From positions 13,766 to 52,758 of the forward strand of contig JAHEGI010000006.1 of the NCBI GenBank assembly GCA_024639785.1: a DNA stretch of 38,993 nt. The letters are read 5' to 3'. Of the stretch, positions 137 to 33,812 are shown in pieces. The notes beneath the pieces were generated by a model. It was given only the letters and a program-made list of their open reading frames with translations, was not told the DNA's origin and did not search any database. The DNA is from Cryomorphaceae bacterium. GTDB taxonomy: Bacteria > Bacteroidota > Bacteroidia > Flavobacteriales > Schleiferiaceae. Position 1 is the stretch's first letter, and the number at the start of each line of letters is the position of its first letter. Both the position numbers and the translations under genes were made by a program.

Positions 137-320
137 CCGCTAGAGGGCGAGAGAGCACGCGCTTCGCGCTCGCTTAGTTTGTTGGCTAGGTTGGTCTGTC
201 GGGACATGCGAAGCGCCTTCACTTAACCGCTTAATCCCTTTTATCCTTCAACCTTGTGGTCGATCTTCGCTGCGCGCTGGGACTTTCCGTTGTTTTACCA
301 AGCGCAAGCCCTCGAGCCCT
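137..320. repeat. Dispersed intergenic repeat, copy 1
   Basis: A GC-rich hairpin-like stretch (about 152-176) is followed by the 13-mer gtttgttggctag (177-189) and then a block of about 93 bp (228-320) that ends on the pgi stop codon. The same 13-mer (7541-7553) and a clearly similar block (7591-7681) recur in the same order in the other convergent gap of the first 9 kb. Shared stretches include cgcttaat, cgcgctgggactt and agccct. No open frame looks real in it. Confidence 0.7.
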
Positions 321-1920
321 ATAGAAAGCTCCTTACGTGCTTCAACAGCGCTGTGGTCGAGGGGTCATGTGCGCCCAACTCGCCGTCGCCTTCTAATTCA
401 GGCAGGATGGCATTAGCCATTTCCTTGCCCAGCTCTACGCCCCATTGGTCGTAGGAGTAGACGTTCCAAATCACGCCCTGGAAGAAGATTTTGTGCTCAT
501 ACAGGGCAATCAAGGCACCCAAGGCAAAGGGATTCATGCGGTCAAATAACAACGTGCTGGTAGGGCGATTGCCTTCAAATACCTTGTACGCGGTGGCGGC
601 TTTTGGACGGCCAATAGCCAGAGCCTCAGTTTGCGCTAAGAAATTGCTCAGCAACTTGGCATGATGCGCATGTAAAGGATGCTCAGGCAAAACAGACGCA
701 ATAAAGTCAGCAGGAATCAACTCCGTGCCTTGGTGGATCAGTTGATAAAACGCGTGTTGGCCATTGGTGCCGGGCTCACCCCAAACCACCGGTCCAGTGG
801 CATAGGTGACGCGCTCGCCATTGCGATCCACATATTTTCCATTGCTTTCCATATCGGCTTGCTGCAAATAGGCAGCAAACCTGTGGAGGTATTGATCGTA
901 CGGAAGGACGGCATGACTTGCAGCCGACATGAAGTTTCGATACCATATGCCCAAAGCCGCCATGATTTGAGGGATGTTCTGACGGAAAGGCTGCTCCGCG
1001 GTATGGCGGTCCATTGCGTGGGCGCCATCGAGAAACTGCTGAAACTGTATCGAACCAATCGAAATACACACAGGCATGCCAATGGCGCTCCAAACGGAAT
1101 ATCGTCCACCGACCCAATCCCAAAAGCCAAACGTGTTTTTCTCACTAATTCCGAAGGCTTTGACTTTTTCTGAATTGGTGCTGAGGGCGACAAACTGCTT
1201 TTGAGTACAGGCGGTGGTGCCTAGTTTTTGAATCAACCATGTGCGCGCTGCCTCGGCATTGGCCATGGTTTCTTGGGTAGTGAACGTTTTGGAAGCCACG
1301 ATAAACAGGGTGCGCTCCGGATCCACCTTCATGAGGCATTCGTGGAGGTCGGAGCCGTCCACATTGGCCACAAAGTGCATTTGGAGGCTGCGGTCTGAAA
1401 AGGGCTTGAGTGCCTCGACTGCCATGCGAGGGCCGAGATCTGATCCGCCAATACCGATGTTTACGATGTGCGTGAATTTCTTGCCTGTGAAACTCTTTTT
1501 GCGCCCATCGCGGATAGCATCCGCAAAAGCGAACATACGCTCTCGCTCCCCGCGGGCCAGGGCTCGCACGTCTTCTCCTTGAACCTCAAACGATTCTGTG
1601 CTTGGATCGCGCAGTACACTGTGCAGAACGGCGCGACCTTCTGTTTGATTTATAGCCTCGCCACCCATTTGTGCTTGAAGCGCTTGAACAGCACCACATT
1701 CATGGAAAAGCTGTTCCAAAAGGTTCAAAGTCTCTTCACTCACGCGGTGCTTGGCATAGTCAAACAAGAGCAAATCCTCTACGCGGACATGCATGCGCTC
1801 AAAGCGATCCGCTTCTTTAGAGAGGAGGTCGCGAAGATGAACGTCTTTCGCTGTTTTTGCATGCACCTCCAAAGCTTTCCAAGCAGCGGTGGTCGTGGGA
1901 TTTACGGAAGGGAAGGACAT
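319..1920 (-). CDS. pgi: Glucose-6-phosphate isomerase
   Basis: This is the cytosolic glycolytic enzyme that interconverts glucose 6-phosphate and fructose 6-phosphate. The 533-residue product is close to the usual length of the long bacterial/eukaryotic-type enzyme. It contains the sugar-isomerase motif [16 protein letters not shown] near residue 157, the serine-rich phosphate-binding region ([15 protein letters not shown]), and the family signature around [19 protein letters not shown]. The C-terminal segment [11 protein letters not shown], typical of the last active-site helices, is present. The ATG at 1920 lies only 5 bases after the carbonic anhydrase stop codon, so the two are probably cotranscribed behind nfu. 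The stop codon abuts the intergenic repeat. No key region is missing. Confidence 0.97.
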
Positions 1921-1925
1921 AGAAC

Positions 1926-2459
1926 TTAAGGTTGGATGTTTGTATCCTCTTTAAACCAAGAGGAGTACATCACATAGTTTTTGGCAATACGCTCGACTTC
2001 GCCTTGAGTTAATTCAGGGCTAATGTCTTTAATTTTTTTTGCTGGGATGCCCGCAAAGATGCTTCCGCTGGGCACATGGGTCCCTGCCGTCAGCACGGCG
2101 CCCGCAGCAATGATGCTATTGGATTCGACCACACAGCCATCCATCACGATGGCACCCATGCCTACGAGAACGCGGTCGTGTAAGGTGCATCCATGGACGA
2201 TGGCGTTATGTCCAATGCTGACATCATGACCGATATGGGTAGGAAACTTTTGGTACGTGCAATGGACAACCGCATTGTCTTGCACGTTCACGCGGTCACC
2301 CATATGGATGTGGTGCACGTCCCCACGAACGACCGCATTGAACCAAATTGAGCAGGATTCGCCCATAGTCACCTCGCCAACCACAGTGGCCGTAGGGGCA
2401 AGGAAGCAGGATTCGGGAATCTGTGGCACATGGCCACGGACGGGCAGAACAGTGGGCAT
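1926..2459 (-). CDS. Gamma-carbonic-anhydrase-like left-handed beta-helix (hexapeptide repeat) protein
   Basis: This is a 177-residue protein of the gamma carbonic anhydrase/PaaY group. Imperfect hexapeptide repeats (for example [27 protein letters not shown]) build a trimeric left-handed beta-helix. The metal-site histidines appear in VVHCTY and [10 protein letters not shown], and the conserved RGD and NVQDNAVVH segments are intact. Members can hydrate CO2 or act as CoA-thioester-related enzymes, so the activity is not certain. The open frame extends upstream into nfu, but homology begins at [13 protein letters not shown], so ATG 2459 is chosen. That start lies 10 bases after the nfu stop. 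The gene sits in a nfu-CA-pgi operon with no obvious functional link. Confidence 0.88.
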
Positions 2460-2469
2460 GGCGTGAGAC

Positions 2470-3072
2470 TTATACCGGTACGACGTCCTCAACCAAGGTG
2501 GGGAGCATGCGTTGCAAAATATTTTTAATGCCTTGCTGCAAAGTGAGCGTCGAGCTTGGGCAGCCCGCACAGGCCCCTTGGAGCTGGACTTTGACAATTT
2601 TCTCTTCGTAGGCCACAAAGGCGATGTTACCGCCATCTTGTGCAACCGCGGGCTTGACAAATTCTTCCAAGATGTCAATGATTCGGAGTTCAATCTCTCC
2701 GAGGTCCTCCTCCTGATCGACCGAAACGACGCCATCGCTGGACTCATTGGCTGCCACGGTTGGGGTGCCGGTCAAAACTGGCTTACCCTCTTGGAGGTAC
2801 TCCAAAATGAACTGACGTATTTCTTGGGTGACCGTTTCCCATTCTACCACGTTGAACTTCTGAATGGCGATAAAGTTGCTCGACATAAAGACCTCCTTAA
2901 CGAATGGGAAATGAAATAATGCAGTCGCCAAAGGGGAGATGGATGCTTCCTCAATATTGTGGAACTCCACATGATCGAGGTCGACCACCATTTTATTGGC
3001 AACAAATTTCATGACCGCGGGATTCGGGGTCATTTCCGCATAAACACTGACGGGAACGCGTTGAATTTCCAT
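2470..3072 (-). CDS. NifU-like Fe-S cluster scaffold/carrier protein (Nfu type)
   Basis: This 200-residue protein has two domains. An N-terminal Nfu domain (about residues 1-95, containing MTPNPAVMKF and FPFVKEVFMSSNFIAI) is joined to a C-terminal NifU domain. The latter carries the cluster-binding CAGC pair at residues 168 and 171, followed by PSSTLTLQQGI. Proteins of this architecture accept a [4Fe-4S] cluster from the SUF system and deliver it to cytosolic apo-enzymes. It is the first gene of a three-gene minus-strand operon with the carbonic anhydrase-like gene and pgi. A TACCTTTG box ends 4 bases before the ATG, suggesting a very short or absent leader. Confidence 0.93.
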   Translation of the reverse strand: MEIQRVPVSVYAEMTPNPAVMKFVANKMVVDLDHVEFHNIEEASISPLATALFHFPFVKEVFMSSNFIAIQKFNVVEWETVTQEIRQFILEYLQEGKPVLTGTPTVAANESSDGVVSVDQEEDLGEIELRIIDILEEFVKPAVAQDGGNIAFVAYEEKIVKVQLQGACAGCPSSTLTLQQGIKNILQRMLPTLVEDVVPV

Positions 3073-3076
3073 TCTA

Positions 3077-3084
3077 CAAAGGTA
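3077..3084 (-). promoter_or_regulatory. Putative -7 promoter box (TACCTTTG) of the nfu operon
   Basis: On the minus strand TACCTTTG matches the Bacteroidota -7 consensus TAnnTTTG exactly and is separated from the nfu ATG by 4 bases. No TTG was found at the -33 spacing. If it works as in known Bacteroidota promoters, transcription would start at or next to the ATG. Confidence 0.5.
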
Positions 3085-3120
3085 CCGAATGCAATTGGCA
3101 TGTGCCGGCCATTCCGGCCT

Positions 3121-3128
3121 TATTTTTG
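3121..3128 (+). promoter_or_regulatory. Putative -7 promoter box (TATTTTTG) for lepB
   Basis: TATTTTTG matches TAnnTTTG, and a TTG lies 23 bases upstream (3095-3097), slightly wider than the usual spacing. A small GC hairpin (3104-3118) falls between the two boxes. The lepB ATG is 68 bases downstream, so this transcript would have a leader, unlike that of nfu on the other strand. Confidence 0.35.
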
Positions 3129-3196
3129 CTCATCTTGGTCCGGGCCATGGGTGAAGGGCATTTCCTTAAACTTCTGGCTCCCAAAAACATATCATT

Positions 3197-4810
3197 ATGC
3201 TCGATTTTTTAGTCTACTACCTGGTTATCAACCTGTACAGTTCGCTGATCACTTGGAAGTTTTTCATCGCGAATGGAAAGCCTGCCTGGGCAGCGTTCGT
3301 TCCGCTCTACCGAACGTGGGTGTTGACACAGATTGCCGATCGTCCGCGCTGGTGGACCTTCTTGTGCTACATCCCCGTGGTGGACAATGTCATGGCCATC
3401 ATTTTGAGCTACGAGCTATTGCACATGCATGATTACCGGGAGAACAAGCATATTATTTGGACAATTGCCACGCTCGGAGGTTACTTGGGCTATCTAAACT
3501 ATACGGCCAAATTGTCTCCCGGGTCGCGGGATAACGCAGAGATCCGACGCCGGATGCCGGCCACAATCAACCATATTTTATTCGCCGTGGTGGCTGCGGG
3601 CTCAATTCGAATGACCACCTTCGAGGCCTACAACATTCCCACGGGCTCCATGGAGAAGACCCTCATGGTGGGCGACTACCTCTTTGTGAGCAAAGTGCAT
3701 TATGGATTGCGTTTGCCGAATACGCCTTTGAGCATCCCCTTGATGCACAACCTCATTCCCTATACACAGACGGCCAGTTATTTAGATTGGATCGAAATGC
3801 CTTATGTGCGCATTCCCGGGTGGACTCAGCCCAAAAAGGGCGATGCTGTGGTCTTCAATTTCCCAGTCGACCCTGATCGTCCCGTCGACAAGAAGGAGAA
3901 CTACGTGAAGCAATGCGTGGGCACCCCGGGGGACACCTTGAAAATTGTGGACCGCCAAGTATACACCAACGGTCTGGCTCAGTCCTTTGGGGAGCGCAGC
4001 AATCCGCAGTGGAGCTACTACGTTCGGACCAACGGTCAGGGCTTTAATCCGTCCGCGCTCAAGCGCAATTTTGACATCAACTACTTGGACAACCGCTTGG
4101 TAAACAACCAAAATCTGTCGGATGTGATCCAAATCACGGAGACGGAATACTTCATTACCATCTCCCAAGACATGCTGGCCGCCTTCTCCGCGCAGCCCAA
4201 CATTGACACCATTGTCGTGATGAACAGCCCAGGGGACAACATTTTCCCAGAGGGTACGCCGCCGGCCATCGTGTGGTACAACGAAAATGCGGTGGCTCCC
4301 GGAGTCATGTTCCCGAACCCTGACGGCCACCAGGATAGCACGGTTTTCTCCTGGTCGCGTGACAACTACGGACCTATTTGGATTCCCGCGAAGGGCCAAT
4401 CGGTGGCCTTGAACTATCAAACGGCCCTCATCTATGGCCGCGCCATCCGCGAATACGAAGGCCATGACCTCGAACTACGCGACGGCACCTACTATGTGGA
4501 CGGCGAAGCGGCTTCGAGCTACACCTTCGAGATGGACTACTATTGGATGATGGGTGACAACCGCCACAATTCCTGGGACAGCCGCTACTGGGGCTTCGTG
4601 CCGGAGGATCACATCGTGGGCAAGCCGGTCTTTATCTTCTTCTCGAGCGATCAGTTCATTGAAGGCTTCCTTTCGTCCAAACGCTGGGAGCGCTTCTTCA
4701 CCGTTGTCCACGGGGAAGGACAGCCTACGAGCTACCTCTGGCCATTCTTGATCTTAGTGGCCCTCTACTACGGCTGGGAGTACTATAACAAGCGCAAAGC
4801 GGCTAAATGA
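3197..4810 (+). CDS. lepB: Signal peptidase I
   Basis: This membrane-bound serine protease removes signal peptides from exported preproteins. At 537 residues it is much longer than E. coli LepB, as is usual in Bacteroidota. Several hydrophobic segments precede the catalytic domain (about 1-20, 55-75, 85-100 and 122-137). The nucleophile Ser151 lies in PTGSMEKTL, and the general base is Lys238 in NYVKQCVGTPGD. The closing box MGDNRHNSWDSRYWGFV is near residue 451. Between Lys238 and that box is a large extra periplasmic region (about 250-440). A final membrane helix is seen at the C-terminus (LWPFLILVALYYGWEYY). The next gene starts inside the lepB stop (ATGA, 4807-4810), implying translational coupling. 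Confidence 0.96.
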   Translation: MLDFLVYYLVINLYSSLITWKFFIANGKPAWAAFVPLYRTWVLTQIADRPRWWTFLCYIPVVDNVMAIILSYELLHMHDYRENKHIIWTIATLGGYLGYLNYTAKLSPGSRDNAEIRRRMPATINHILFAVVAAGSIRMTTFEAYNIPTGSMEKTLMVGDYLFVSKVHYGLRLPNTPLSIPLMHNLIPYTQTASYLDWIEMPYVRIPGWTQPKKGDAVVFNFPVDPDRPVDKKENYVKQCVGTPGDTLKIVDRQVYTNGLAQSFGERSNPQWSYYVRTNGQGFNPSALKRNFDINYLDNRLVNNQNLSDVIQITETEYFITISQDMLAAFSAQPNIDTIVVMNSPGDNIFPEGTPPAIVWYNENAVAPGVMFPNPDGHQDSTVFSWSRDNYGPIWIPAKGQSVALNYQTALIYGRAIREYEGHDLELRDGTYYVDGEAASSYTFEMDYYWMMGDNRHNSWDSRYWGFVPEDHIVGKPVFIFFSSDQFIEGFLSSKRWERFFTVVHGEGQPTSYLWPFLILVALYYGWEYYNKRKAAK

Positions 4811-5877
4811 AGCTACTTCGGAGCTACCTCGTAATGCTTACCCTCCTGATGGCTTTCACGGCATTAGGGCAAGGGGAGGAGCTCCGCATGGATAGTTTGC
4901 CAGCGTGGCCCAATGTCATTGCAATTCCCGAATACCGGCATACTCCTTCGGTGGATACGGCGGCGATTTTAGCGGATAGCAAAGAGCGCTGGGATCAACT
5001 GAGCCAAAACCAACTCATTCGCCTACTCTGGGTGGCATGGAAGTACGAATGGCCCCGCGACAGCCTGGTGGCCGTGGTGCACCGACATCCGCAGGGCTAC
5101 TCCCGGGATTCGCTCATCGTTTGGCTCGAGGAAGGCGGAAAAGCAGGCGAAGAACGCTTTCGAATGGCCCAAATTAAAGCCCGCCGCTACCAAATTGCGA
5201 CCGAGGCCTTCAACTACACGGGCGATGTACGCCAGCTCGACTTGAGTTTGATGTGGTACGGTGTCCAGGCCAACGACGACGGCCATTGGAGTTTGGCCCA
5301 GGTCAAGCCCAAAGTTCTCCTGAGCCAATTCCAGAGCCAACCGGGCGCGCTCGAATTTGATATCCAAACCAACCGAGACCAAGGCTTCCACTTTCTGTTT
5401 GGGAGTCCCGTACCGCTCGATACGGTTCGGGCCTGGTACAACGGTGCGCTGTCCTACGTGAATGACATACCCACACTTTTCCCAGGCACAGCCGAAACAT
5501 TTGACCGCCCAAACGGATCTTGGATGTATGTGCTGCTAGCCACTGGCGCTGTGACGGGGCCGGGTAAATGCGGCGGCTTGAAGGATTATGAATTGCAGGT
5601 TCGGAACCAAAAATCGGATGCAGAAGTTGCCCTGAGCCAAAACATCGGTGCCCAATTGGTGGATAGCGTCTACCACTGTGTGCCCGAACTCTACTGGTCC
5701 GGCTACCTCATGGACGACCACATCCCCGATGCCGTAATGGTCCAGGAAATCCCCGGTGGATTGCGCATGGTCCTATTCTTATCTGATCCAGCTCCTGAAG
5801 GTCAAATTTGGATTAAATCAGCCGAATGGTTCCTCTACAATGAACCAACGGAAGGGGAAGATGCCCCATCTTCGTAG
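4807..5877 (+). CDS. Secreted protein of unknown function, coupled to lepB
   Basis: I do not recognise this 356-residue protein. It begins with a clear signal peptide (MKLLRSYLVMLTLLMAFTALGQG; likely cut near residue 22) and has no lipobox cysteine or later membrane helix. It therefore probably lives in the periplasm or at the outer membrane. A charged helical region (about 50-140) is followed by a more beta-like C-terminal half with a CGG (near residue 256) and a second Cys in YHCVPELYW. These could form a disulfide. The ATG overlaps the lepB TGA, and the carboxylase gene follows after 19 bases, so it belongs to the lepB transcript. The name of the neighbour does not prove a link to signal peptide processing. 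Confidence 0.85.
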   Translation: MKLLRSYLVMLTLLMAFTALGQGEELRMDSLPAWPNVIAIPEYRHTPSVDTAAILADSKERWDQLSQNQLIRLLWVAWKYEWPRDSLVAVVHRHPQGYSRDSLIVWLEEGGKAGEERFRMAQIKARRYQIATEAFNYTGDVRQLDLSLMWYGVQANDDGHWSLAQVKPKVLLSQFQSQPGALEFDIQTNRDQGFHFLFGSPVPLDTVRAWYNGALSYVNDIPTLFPGTAETFDRPNGSWMYVLLATGAVTGPGKCGGLKDYELQVRNQKSDAEVALSQNIGAQLVDSVYHCVPELYWSGYLMDDHIPDAVMVQEIPGGLRMVLFLSDPAPEGQIWIKSAEWFLYNEPTEGEDAPSS

Positions 5878-5896
5878 GGTTAAAGCCTCTACAACT

Positions 5897-7510
5897 ATGT
5901 CTCTCGCTCAAGAAAAAAATGCGGATACCCTAAAACTCCTCGTTGCGGAAACCCGCCGACGCTTAGGGGAAATCTCCTTGGGTGGGGGAAAAAAGCGCTT
6001 GGAAAAATTGGCACAACAGGGCAAATGGTCTGCGCGCGAACGCGTCCACGCTCTGCTTGACCCCAACACACCAAGTCTTGAAATTGGCGCCTTTGCCGCT
6101 GATGGGATGTACGAGGAACACGGAGGCGCCCCTGCCGCCGGGGTAGTCGTTGTGATGGGCCGTATACACAACCGACTTTGTATCGTCGTGGCCAATGATC
6201 CGACGGTCAAGGCGGGTGCGTGGTTTCCAATGACAGGCAAAAAGAACCTTCGCGCTCAGGAAATCGCCATGGAGAACAAGGTGCCCATCTTGTACTTGGT
6301 GGATTCGGCCGGAGTATATCTGCCCATGCAGGATGAAATTTTCCCCGACAAAGAGCACTTTGGACGGATCTTCCGCAACAACGCGGTCATGAGCAGCATG
6401 GGCATCCCGCAATTGGCCGCGGTTATGGGCTCTTGTGTCGCCGGAGGTGCGTACTTGCCCATCATGAGCGATGAAGCCATCATTGTGGAGGGAACGGGAA
6501 GCATCTTTTTGGCCGGCAGCTACCTCGTAAAGGCGGCCATCGGGGAGGATATTGACAACGAAACCTTAGGCGGTGCGGATACGCATACCTCGATCAGCGG
6601 AGTGGCCGACTACAAAGCCAAAGACGACGCGGAAGCGGTGAAGCTCATGCGCGGCCTAGTGGACAAGCTCGGCGAGCGCCCCCAAGCAGGCTTTGACCGG
6701 GGGGAATCCCTGGCGCCCGCCTTCCCTGCAGAGGAATTATACAAGCGCATGCCGGTAGATGCGAAGCCGTATGCAATGCGCGAACTTTTGGAATGCCTTG
6801 TGGATGCCGATTCCATGTTGGAGTACAAATCGGACTATGGCAAAACATTGATTACCACCTACGCACGTATCGACGGCTGGGCGGTAGGCATCGTCGCCAA
6901 TGAACGCCAGGTCATCAAGAATGCCAAGGGGGAAATGCAAATTGGCGGCGTGATTTATAGTGAAAGTGCGGACAAGGGCGCCCGCTTCATTGCGAATTGT
7001 AACCAGAAAAAAATCCCTTTAGTCTTTGTCCAAGACGTGACGGGTTTCATGGTCGGTTCTCGCGCAGAGCATGGAGGAATCATTAAGGATGGGGCCAAAC
7101 TGGTCAATGCCGTGGCCAATTCGGTGGTTCCTAAGTTTACGGTCATTGTAGGGCACTCTTTTGGCGCCGGCAACTATGCGATGTGCGGCAAGGCCTACGA
7201 CCCGCGCCTTATCATTGCCTGGCCGACAGCTAAGCTTGCGGTGATGGGCGGGGAACAAGCCGCCAAAGTGCTGGTTCAGATCGAGAAAGCCCGAGCGGGT
7301 GCCACCACCCCTGAGGCGGAGCAGGAACTCCTCGAACGCATCAAGGAACGGTACAATACGCAGATGAGTCCCTATTATGCGGCCTCGCGTCTATGGGTCG
7401 ACGCTATTGTAGACCCCGTGGACACGCGAACGTGGTTATCCATGGGTATCGAAGCAGCGAATCAGGCGCCTATTGAACGGCCCTACAATCCGGGGGTGCT
7501 GCAGACGTAA
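5897..7510 (+). CDS. Biotin-dependent acyl-CoA carboxylase, beta (carboxyltransferase) subunit; methylcrotonyl-CoA carboxylase-like
   Basis: This is the carboxyltransferase subunit that moves CO2 from carboxybiotin to an acyl-CoA. Two crotonase-like halves are visible. The N-half carries GKKNLRAQEIAMENKVPILYLVDSAG and the oxyanion-type GSCVAGGAYLPIMSDE. The C-half carries DVTGFMVGSRAEHGGIIKDGAKLVNAV and GHSFGAGNYAMCGKAYDPR. At 537 residues it fits the methylcrotonyl-CoA carboxylase beta group (leucine breakdown) better than the shorter propionyl-CoA enzymes, but substrate cannot be fixed from sequence alone. No biotin-carboxylase/BCCP alpha subunit lies in this window. The open frame extends upstream, but family homology begins after ATG 5897, 19 bases past the previous stop. 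Confidence 0.92.
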   Translation: MSLAQEKNADTLKLLVAETRRRLGEISLGGGKKRLEKLAQQGKWSARERVHALLDPNTPSLEIGAFAADGMYEEHGGAPAAGVVVVMGRIHNRLCIVVANDPTVKAGAWFPMTGKKNLRAQEIAMENKVPILYLVDSAGVYLPMQDEIFPDKEHFGRIFRNNAVMSSMGIPQLAAVMGSCVAGGAYLPIMSDEAIIVEGTGSIFLAGSYLVKAAIGEDIDNETLGGADTHTSISGVADYKAKDDAEAVKLMRGLVDKLGERPQAGFDRGESLAPAFPAEELYKRMPVDAKPYAMRELLECLVDADSMLEYKSDYGKTLITTYARIDGWAVGIVANERQVIKNAKGEMQIGGVIYSESADKGARFIANCNQKKIPLVFVQDVTGFMVGSRAEHGGIIKDGAKLVNAVANSVVPKFTVIVGHSFGAGNYAMCGKAYDPRLIIAWPTAKLAVMGGEQAAKVLVQIEKARAGATTPEAEQELLERIKERYNTQMSPYYAASRLWVDAIVDPVDTRTWLSMGIEAANQAPIERPYNPGVLQT

Positions 7511-7511
7511 T

Positions 7512-7535
7512 CGCGCGCAAAGCGCGCGCTTCGTT
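7512..7535 (+). terminator. GC hairpin directly after the carboxylase stop; possible terminator
   Basis: CGCGCGC (7512-7518) pairs with GCGCGCG (7522-7528) around an AAA loop, starting 2 bases after the TAA. The run after it (cttcgtttgttcgttt) is T-rich but broken, so intrinsic termination would be imperfect. The hairpin is also the outer edge of repeat copy 2. Confidence 0.45.
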
Positions 7536-7742
7536 TGTTCGTTTGTTGGCTAGTAGGTTTGCTAGGTATGGCGGCGGGCCTCCCCTCAAGCGCTTAATCT
7601 CTTTTACCCTTAAACTGTGTGGTGGACCTTCGCCGCGCGCTGGGACTTCCCGTTGCTTTGCCAAGCTCTAGCCCTCTAGCCAACAAACCAACAAACCAAC
7701 AAACCAACAAACCAACAAACAGGCAAACAGCGCGTAGCGCCT
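7533..7742. repeat. Dispersed intergenic repeat, copy 2, bounded by an imperfect inverted repeat
   Basis: Bases 7533-7553 and 7676-7696 are inverted copies of each other (21 positions, one mismatch). The inner 13 bp gtttgttggctag / ctagccaacaaac (7541-7553 and 7676-7688) are perfect. Between them lies the block 7591-7681 that resembles 228-320 in copy 1. The unit sits between convergent genes and could fold into a long-stemmed cruciform, or be a small non-autonomous mobile element. No coding capacity is evident. Confidence 0.7.
7680..7727. repeat. 8-bp tandem repeat, (CCAACAAA)5 plus a degenerate sixth unit
   Basis: Five exact head-to-tail copies of CCAACAAA occupy 7680-7719, and a decayed unit CAGGCAAA follows at 7720-7727. 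The first copies form the right arm of the inverted repeat, so the array probably grew from that arm by slippage. Copy number is likely to vary between strains. Confidence 0.9.
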
Positions 7743-9028
7743 TAAAGCCTCGCATCCACCACCTCGCGCGGCAAGACCCCTTTGACATCGTAAATCACAG
7801 CGCCTTTTTGGGCTTTCAGTTCAGGCATATCCAGGGCGAGGAATTGTTCGTGGGCCACGGCCAAGATGATCGCATCGTAGCCGGCGGGATCCAAGGCGTT
7901 GACTAGGCTGAAACCGTATTCGTGCTCCACCTCTTGGGAGCTGGCCCAAGGATCGTACGTGTCGACTTGCAAGCCGTATTGAAGGAGTTCGTGGCGGATA
8001 TCCACGACTTTGGTGTTGCGTATATCCGGGCAGTTTTCCTTGAAAGTGATCCCCAAAACGAGGGCCTTGCTTTCTTTTACCGTTTTGCCTTCCGCGATGA
8101 GGAGTTTCACCACTTTACTGGCAATGAAGAGGCCCATGGAGTCGTTTACTCGGCGCCCACTTAAGATGACGGCTGGGTGGTATCCGAGGCTTTCGGCTTT
8201 ATGGGCCAAATAATAGGGGTCCACAGAAATACAGTGCCCACCTACTAGGCCTGGACTGTACTTTAGAAAATTCCACTTTGTTCCTGCGGCTTCCAAGACA
8301 TCGCGGGTGTCGATGCCCACACGGTCAAAGATGAGGGAGAGTTCGTTCACGAACGAGATGTTCACGTCGCGTTGGGCGTTTTCAATCGCTTTGGAAGCTT
8401 CGGCCACCTTCATGTTGGGGGCCAAGTGCGTTCCCGCCGAAATGATGCGACGGTATAGTCCATCGACAAATTCAGCCGCGGCAGGAGTGCTGCCCGATGT
8501 GACTTTCTTGATGGAGGTCAAAGTGTTGATCTTGTCTCCTGGGTTGATGCGTTCGGGACTGTATCCGCAATAGAAATCCTGGTTGAATTTCAAGCGACTA
8601 TGTGCTTCTAGGACGGGCACACAATCCTCTTCCGTGCAGCCAGGATACGTGGTGGATTCGTAAATGACGACGTCGCCCACCTTAAGATTTTCGCTAATGG
8701 TTTGAGATGCCTTGAGCAAAGGACCTAAGTCAGGCGCGTTAAAGGAATTGATCGGGGTAGGGACGGTGACAATGTAGACATTGGCTTTTGCCAAGTCTGC
8801 GATGTTACAGCTGAATACAATACCGCGCTCTAAGGCCGATTGAATGGCTGCAGGTTCTGCTTCCTTTGTGGAATCCTCGCTTCGATTGAGTTCGTCGACA
8901 CGCGTACATTTTATATCAAAGCCAATGACTGGATAATGCTTCGAGAATTCGAGAGCGAGGGGCATACCCACATAGCCTAAGCCAATGACTGCAATGTGAG
9001 GATTCGTAGGCAGTTCCGCAGGATTCAT
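7742..9028 (-). CDS. Nucleotide-sugar 6-dehydrogenase (UDP-HexNAc dehydrogenase, TviB/WbpO-like)
   Basis: This NAD-dependent enzyme oxidises the C6 hydroxyl of a UDP-sugar to a uronate for surface polysaccharide. The Rossmann motif GLGYVG is at residues 16-21, followed by VPTPI and YESTTYPGCTEE in the nucleotide-binding region. The catalytic Cys266 lies in GGHCISVDPYYL. The C-terminal UDP-binding domain includes GITFKENCPDIRNTKV. The 428-residue length and the GGHCI motif fit the UDP-N-acetylhexosamine dehydrogenases of Vi antigen and related pathways better than UDP-glucose dehydrogenase; substrate is inferred. ATG 9028 is preferred over an upstream alternative at 9046 because homology begins at once and a promoter-like box lies just before it. 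No other polysaccharide genes are adjacent. Confidence 0.9.
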   Translation of the reverse strand: MNPAELPTNPHIAVIGLGYVGMPLALEFSKHYPVIGFDIKCTRVDELNRSEDSTKEAEPAAIQSALERGIVFSCNIADLAKANVYIVTVPTPINSFNAPDLGPLLKASQTISENLKVGDVVIYESTTYPGCTEEDCVPVLEAHSRLKFNQDFYCGYSPERINPGDKINTLTSIKKVTSGSTPAAAEFVDGLYRRIISAGTHLAPNMKVAEASKAIENAQRDVNISFVNELSLIFDRVGIDTRDVLEAAGTKWNFLKYSPGLVGGHCISVDPYYLAHKAESLGYHPAVILSGRRVNDSMGLFIASKVVKLLIAEGKTVKESKALVLGITFKENCPDIRNTKVVDIRHELLQYGLQVDTYDPWASSQEVEHEYGFSLVNALDPAGYDAIILAVAHEQFLALDMPELKAQKGAVIYDVKGVLPREVVDARL

Positions 9029-9033
9029 ACGGG

Positions 9034-9059
9034 TAAAGGTACGCACCGCCGTACCTTTA
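9034..9059. promoter_or_regulatory. Perfect 10-bp palindrome carrying back-to-back -7-like boxes
   Basis: taaaggtacg (9034-9043) and cgtaccttta (9050-9059) are perfect inverted copies around a 6-base spacer in the 35-bp divergent gap. Each arm reads TACCTTTA outward, one base from TAnnTTTG. The boxes end 5 bases before the dehydrogenase ATG and 4 bases before the ABC transporter ATG. The site could be a symmetric divergent promoter, a regulator operator, or both. Confidence 0.5.
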
Positions 9060-31344: not shown

Positions 31345-31416
31345 GGCCCCGTAGTTCAACGGATAGAATAGACGTTTCCTAAACGTTTGATCCAGGTTCG
31401 ATTCCCGGCGGGGCTA
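31345..31416 (+). tRNA. tRNA-Arg (anticodon CCU)
   Basis: A 72-base cloverleaf can be drawn: acceptor GGCCCCG/CGGGGCT (first pair G-U), D arm GTTC/GAAT, anticodon stem GACGT/ACGTT around loop TTCCTAA, T loop TTCGATT, discriminator A. The anticodon CCU reads AGG arginine codons. CCA is not encoded. The T stem CCAGG/CCCGG has one A-C mismatch in its middle. The gene lies 14 bases after metG. Confidence 0.93.
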
Positions 31417-31431
31417 CAAGTCGAAAGAGTT

Positions 31432-33708: not shown

Positions 33709-33780
33709 GGCTCCGTAGTACAATGGATAGTATGTGGGTTTCCGGAGCCTAAGATGCAGGTTCGATTCCTGCCGGGGCTA
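33709..33780 (+). tRNA. tRNA-Arg (anticodon CCG)
   Basis: A 72-base cloverleaf: acceptor GGCTCCG/CGGGGCT (G-U first pair and one further wobble), D arm GTAC/GTAT, anticodon stem TGGGT/GCCTA around loop TTCCGGA, T arm GCAGG/CCTGC with loop TTCGATT, discriminator A. The anticodon CCG reads CGG arginine codons. CCA is not encoded. It has its own TACTTTTG box and is followed by a terminator hairpin. Confidence 0.94.
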
Positions 33781-33812
33781 CAAATCAGGCGCCCAGGCGT
33801 CACTCCGGAATG

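Follow-up and report, generated by a model that had tools for sequence, protein, structure and literature searches.

REPs are small, palindromic, extragenic sequences that differ from species to species; they are common in convergent gaps and uncommon in divergent ones (PMC1525189, PMC3733652). In BIMEs and REPINs, inverted units are combined into composites (PMC2817692, PMC3116915). In the parts of the sources drawn on here, a REP is a hairpin of 20 to 40 bp tagged with GTAG or CGTC, with the GTAG type tied to RAYT transposases (PMC3733652). The BOX elements of Streptococcus pneumoniae are described as modular, with a variable tandem middle module, and as enriched between convergent genes; the convergent bias of BOX, RUP, and SPRITE is interpreted in the same sections as a sign of parasitic mobility (PMC3049150).

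The window analyzed here is a stretch of 38,993 nt (G000:C17:13766-52758) from a draft genome of 1.8 Mb in 22 contigs, designated G000. A preliminary description of the window had reported two similar blocks of about 90 bp at 228-320 and 7591-7681. The blocks are real: positions 208-318 and 7571-7681 were 81% identical without gaps, and in genome-wide searches copy 1 retrieved copy 2 with an E value of 1.4e-26 and copy 2 retrieved copy 1 with 2.6e-27, far better than chance. The 13-mer GTTTGTTGGCTAG is shared at 177-189 and 7541-7553 exactly as claimed, and both gaps are convergent by the gene coordinates in the window. Two details needed adjustment, in that the conserved core begins a few bases earlier than the blocks, at 222 and 7585, and that the GC-rich hairpin said to follow each upstream stop is clean in copy 2 (7512-7528), with a more complex fold after the stop at 121-123 in copy 1. 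The features of the two copies and their flanking genes are as follows.

to 123: upstream gene of copy 1, stop at 121-123, 41 codons inside the window, putatively MarR-like by eye
124-221, + strand: block-A arm of copy 1, between upstream stop and core, with 13-mer GTTTGTTGGCTAG at 177-189; fold z -1.45
222-300, + strand: copy 1 core, block A 222-246 and block B 261-288 (C17:13987-14064, 73 bits)
301-318, + strand: block-B arm of copy 1, reduced to a short remnant that runs up to the stop of phosphoglucose isomerase; read directly
319-1920, - strand: phosphoglucose isomerase, downstream flank of copy 1
5756-7510, + strand: carboxyl transferase, upstream flank of copy 2
7512-7528, + strand: copy 2 hairpin directly behind the carboxyl transferase stop, 7 pairs and a loop of 3
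7530-7584, + strand: block-A arm of copy 2, rich in G and T, with the 13-mer at 7541-7553 and TTCGTTTG in tandem at 7530-7547
7585-7663, + strand: copy 2 core, block A 7585-7609 and block B 7624-7651 (C17:21350-21427, 81.3 bits)
7676-7728, + strand: block-B arm of copy 2, rich in C and A, with CCAACAAA octamers at 7680-7720 (5.1 units)
7729-7741, - strand: copy 2 short hairpin beside the dehydrogenase stop
7742-9046, - strand: UDP-sugar dehydrogenase, downstream flank of copy 2

The arms of copy 2 are clearly inverted, with 7676-7699 complementary to 7530-7553 over 24 nt at 92%, and this arrangement is nearly lost on one side of copy 1. Both gaps have a G+C content of 55-57%, and the window has 52%. 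The phosphoglucose isomerase is 89% identical to a protein of Schleiferiaceae bacterium FCJ.15 and 88% identical to one from a Cryomorphaceae MAG, which locates the genome in this section of the Flavobacteriales. Two tRNAs were the only Rfam matches in the window, with nothing up to an E value of 5 in 7480-7800, in agreement with the earlier statement that no named family could be recognized. The tRNAs are a tRNA-Arg pair (CCT and CCG anticodons) at 31345-31417 and 33709-33781, a direct repeat about 2.4 kb apart and 78% alike.

Relatives were searched with a sequence-only model of the core at an E value cut-off of 0.01. Matches were found in 7 of 22 genomes of the genus and none in the other 15. 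The counts were 35 in G014, 17 in G000, where the two window copies thus have further company, 17 in G003, 14 in G006, 13 in G021, and 11 in G004, with one weak match in G009; all core-bearing genomes are multi-contig drafts. The genus total was 108 model matches, from which 100 loci were fetched; left out were G006:C29:42, G004:C89, G021:C102, G021:C121:597, and G014:C288, and three were second matches in fetched loci. In an order-level sample of 395 genomes, searched with stricter filters, 14 matched, of which six belong to the genus (G014 is missing among the matches listed) and eight others had one match each at 16.5-20.2 bits, near chance. The array pattern (AAGGGTTD)2AAGGG occurred in 6 of 100 relatives (G000, G004, G006, G009, G014, and G021), and its reversed control in none. 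Taken with the core counts, octamer arrays therefore reach the nearly coreless G009, and G003 has the core with other octamers. Carriage by a phage or plasmid was not seen, as viral contigs had no match to one exact 22-base pattern and plasmids and phages had none in a distant blastn search with 116 bases; a more diverged carrier is conceivable.

Gap types were assigned for the 75 copies with both neighbors; the remaining 25 of the 100 loci lacked a called gene on one side. Convergent gaps held 57 copies, codirectional gaps 18, and divergent gaps 0, compared with 29, 108, and 30 among 167 gaps in a 239-kb sample of G000. The convergent excess by copy (Fisher p 3e-18) and the divergent deficit (p 9e-6) bear out the proposal of a dispersed element concentrated in convergent gaps, and the excess held by orthologous group (30 versus 14 among 44 classifiable of 53 groups, Fisher p 3e-10). 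Genes were called by ORF heuristics, which include several doubtful small ORFs, and the gene upstream of copy 1 was scored as ending at 115 for 123 with its gap type unchanged. Copies with a score below 20 were omitted from later analyses, and gaps outside 20-260 nt from the arm-side scan. Convergent gaps of G000 with a hairpin plus T-run and no repeat were seen at L361:5760-6004, L364:8928-9022, L366:16921-16992, and L369:16590-16664.

Nearly empty orthologous gaps, of the kind that the preliminary description proposed looking for, were found in the sister genome G009. The gap between carboxyl transferase and dehydrogenase is 4 bp in G009 and 231 bp with a core in G000; the same gap has a core in G003, octamers at a contig end in G004, and arms with no recognizable core in G006. 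Beside phosphoglucose isomerase, the gap is 10 bp in G009, 195 bp with a core in G000, and 223 bp with arms and no core in G006. In G014, a core adjoins phosphoglucose isomerase with a different neighbor gene, and in all 10 further congeners with a closed ORF the isomerase gene overlaps its neighbor. The near-empty G009 gaps and the overlapping congener genes together show that DNA was added within the clade. No target duplication was seen, and the empty G009 gaps (4 and 10 bp) are too short and too diverged for their edges to be read. Since arms occur where there is no recognizable core, arms and core need not form one mobile unit.

The core is 79 bp long and asymmetric. When 31 copies from six genomes were aligned, two blocks stood out as conserved, block A (CTTAAACGYTTAATCTCTTTTACCC) and block B (GGACCTTCGCYGCGCGCCGGGACTTTCC), and the spacer between them was freer. 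The fold of the consensus, another suggestion made earlier, yielded no common structure: RNAalifold placed 3 pairs at -0.35 kcal/mol on the aligned cores, and single cores folded no better than shuffles. Orientation was the same in 48 of 59 orthologous pairs and opposite in 11. In all 27 pairs compared, chosen by us from the 48 with the same orientation, core divergence was below the fourfold-site divergence of the flanking genes. The extreme pair, L219/L244, had 0 differences in 56 core positions versus 142 in 324 fourfold sites, and the rest of its gap is also conserved (0.90). Among the 14 pairs with gap alignments, the core was more alike than the remaining gap in 13, the exception being L235/L301 (0.80 in the core versus 0.83 in the rest). 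At L220/L241, a locus-specific core is 86% identical between arms of different types; L221/L304 has a similar appearance, but its orthology was unconfirmed by flanking genes. The core is thus probably constrained, with the reservations that cores converted to a consensus would give the same picture and that a search by similarity favors conserved copies.

Orthologous copies were slightly more alike than other copies (0.80 versus 0.75, 46 pairs), and the orthologue was the best match in its species in just 8 of 46. Among copies scoring at least 55, the nearest relatives of many G000 cores were G014 cores at other loci, as expected if they form one family with a common source. At the terC site, G000 and G006 have a common private core variant and the core of G004 is of consensus type, in line with such conversion to a consensus. 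Inversion of the core between the arms was considered as an account of the 11 flipped pairs, which had an identity of 0.70 versus a background of 0.69 (0.80 versus 0.75 for same-orientation pairs); being barely above background, they may equally stem from separate arrivals or replacement.

On 104 of 109 sides at gene 3' ends and on 17 of 18 sides at 5' ends, the arm was rich in G in the direction of the core, so that inverted arms are a property of the element and not of gene ends alone. In six species, the arms had an excess of bases identical to those 8 nt away (z 8 to 28, with shuffles within 20-nt blocks), with further excess at a lag of 16 and, for three of the species, of 24, and G000 arms also had lag-4 identity; 35 control gaps had no lag-8 excess. 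Tandem-repeat rows, which may overlap one another, were counted at up to 260 nt from the core: 54 had period 8, 24 had period 16 or 24, and 14 had other periods, 13 of the latter in G014 with hairpin-bearing units of 27, 35, or 43 nt. The remaining parts of these loci had 10 rows, of which three had period 8 and one had period 16. Read toward the core, the units are GGTTTGTT and AGCTGGTT in G000, AGAGGGCT in G003 and G004, AGAGAGCT and AGAGGGCT in G014, AAGGGTTG in G006, and AGGCTTGG and AAGGGTTT in G021. The order of hairpin, 13-mer, and core, held earlier to be kept, is found in G000 but not elsewhere, other species having other octamers and GC-only hairpins occurring in 53 of 119 arms and in 0 of 16 arms from G006. 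In G014, 36 hairpin units following CTAGARAGC were found, with GTGG in 11, GAAG in 8, GTAG in 5, and others. On this comparison of sequences, the arms turn over to species-specific octamers while the core changes slowly, and several gaps have kept the core between arms that differ in octamer type.

Some G014 contigs (L276, L274, and L281) end inside pure octamer arrays adjoining the core; arrays thus break the assembly, and array lengths are minimum values only. In G000:C1, two tandem copies of the entire block-B arm, hairpin included, lie on that side of the core, at about 50 nt each (L208 and L020). Away from core matches, 22 array runs were found in 20 fetched stretches, 19 of them behind a same-strand stop, 13 of these in convergent gaps; two of the other three lay behind an opposite-strand gene (heuristic calls) and one had no left gene. 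At G009:C24:12348-12424 (L419, L378), about 9.5 GGGTT(A/G)AA octamers directly follow a stop codon and precede a TerC-family gene, and no core is present. An origin of the element upstream of terC was considered and rejected, since sister G009 has the octamer array there and no core. A TerC-family gene with one in-frame TAG was noted in the draft genome G011 (G011:C175:1192-1890, L383).

The positions of the copies raise the question of whether they are kept for an effect on the genes that meet there. If they form a selected gene boundary, the arms and hairpins would end transcripts arriving from both directions, or would offer a stop codon in every frame, and the core would be the meeting point. 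This is consistent with the convergent bias. A stop triplet is often part of the octamer. A second stop triplet lies 8 nt past the gene's stop in 16% of 119 arms and in 7% of controls, with a mean of 4.7% of arms at distances not divisible by 8. All-frame stops within 40 nt were found in 21 of 94 arms, whereas shuffled arms gave 6.2 and the controls 6 of 68, and the 19 of 22 array runs behind same-strand stops point the same way. As a general function, all-frame stops were nevertheless rejected, because despite their enrichment they occur in just those 21 arms; the effect involves a minority of arms and is weak in G000, and codirectional copies carry the same inverted arms. For the earlier suggestion of a composite bidirectional terminator, the signs are mixed. 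A looser scan calls the left hairpin of copy 2 terminator-like (3 overlapping calls, 0.7 in shuffles), on the + strand only and with no match on the - strand. A strict scan for a hairpin plus T-run matched 7 of 97 arms versus 6 of 41 control gene ends, so canonical terminators as a class are not enriched in the arms, and ordinary convergent gaps of G000 often have the usual hairpin-plus-T terminators instead. With terminators unenriched and a stop effect that is real but partial, a tolerated dispersed element is preferred over a dedicated boundary device, and we consider the latter unlikely. A structured RNA encoded in the gap is very improbable. The copy 2 gap does fold well beyond shuffles (z -5.8 on the + strand and -3.4 on the - strand), as its arms are inverted repeats, but the copy 1 gap has a z of +0.8, and the fold of the core alignment, the folds of single cores, and the Rfam search of 7480-7800 all spoke against this candidate.

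The main functional rival, put forward from sequence conservation, is a protein-bound core. The core would be a candidate binding site of a chromosomal protein, kept at gene ends for chromosome organization or supercoiling, and the arms would be by-products. Two conserved blocks around a freer spacer, the lack of a common RNA structure, and the low divergence of orthologous cores, extreme in L219/L244, all suit such a site, as does a locus-specific core kept where the arms differ (L220/L241). Against it stand the 15 of 22 congeners that have none and the total of only 11-35 matches per core-bearing genome; homogenization would also give a similar picture. We hold this to be distinctly unlikely. 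More doubtful still is an active process that would write 8-nt G-rich tandem repeats behind stops in a species-specific dialect, with the core as a fixed docking site between the arms; on this reading, each locus would retain a private core variant through the rewriting of the arms between octamer types. If true, it would mean a DNA-writing or homogenizing system at bacterial gene ends, and to our knowledge such a system is known nowhere else.

The explanation that we favor, and regard as somewhat probable, is that the copies belong to a new family of intergenic elements, composite in build, non-coding, and non-autonomous, which would work like BIMEs or BOX and be spread by a factor in trans. 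That factor would copy the element into gene-end gaps by insertion or recombination, and the lack of promoters in these gaps may be the reason why the element is tolerated. Its arms would then grow and be homogenized by slippage or unequal exchange, and the core would be kept if its two blocks are recognized, perhaps by a DNA-binding protein or by the mobilizing factor itself. Neither a mobilizing gene nor an insertion edge was found in the genomes analyzed. The weak likeness of orthologues, the 11 flipped pairs among 59, the L235/L301 exception, and the coreless arms count against this explanation. The birthplace of the element is clear, being one clade within one genus with near-empty orthologous gaps in a sister genome and no RAYT found, and its parts evolve at two tempos, slowly in the core and fast in the 8-nt arms, which differ by species. 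It thereby offers a natural case of how short repeats spread and are homogenized without a recognizable transposase, and raises the question of whether the element has come to serve a function at convergent gene ends.

No description of the element was found in searches of open-licence literature on intergenic repeats at convergent genes in Flavobacteriales and Schleiferiaceae, on octanucleotide repeats in Bacteroidetes (where a virus review was the sole match), on MITEs and REPs in Flavobacteria (where a Porphyromonas study was the sole match), and on cyanobacterial heptanucleotide repeats; for tandem repeats with stop codons, no description of it was found among the matches listed. The preliminary description had called it REP-like. 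It does resemble REPs and BIMEs in being extragenic and enriched at convergent ends (57 of 75 copies, with 0 divergent, versus 29 and 30 of 167 gaps), but, unlike REPs, it has octamer arms and a core, about 80 bp long, in which no structure is conserved. The RAYT transposase domain (Y1_Tnp, PF01797) was found in none of the 22 genus genomes, drafts of 63-98% completeness in which single losses are possible, and the positive control gave matches in 5 of 14 known genomes. Membership of a RAYT-driven REP or REPIN family is thus unsupported by the PF01797 searches, and the missing RAYT, the unstructured core, and the octamer arms set the element apart from REPs and REPINs. Like MITEs such as RUP and Correia, it is short, non-coding, and non-autonomous; unlike them, it is not AT-rich (55-57% G+C in the gaps). 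Its inverted flanks, clear in well-kept copies, vary by species and are almost gone on one side of copy 1, and target duplication was not seen at the short G009 gaps. The TAACTGA direct repeats of marine Beggiatoaceae are likewise short intergenic tandem units with stop triplets, but as presented in the sections used here they have a 7-nt unit of one sequence and no core between inverted arms (PMC4679880). BOX has the opposite build, by the partial descriptions compared: boxB is repeated inside boxA and boxC, whereas the present element has a single core inside and variable octamers outside.
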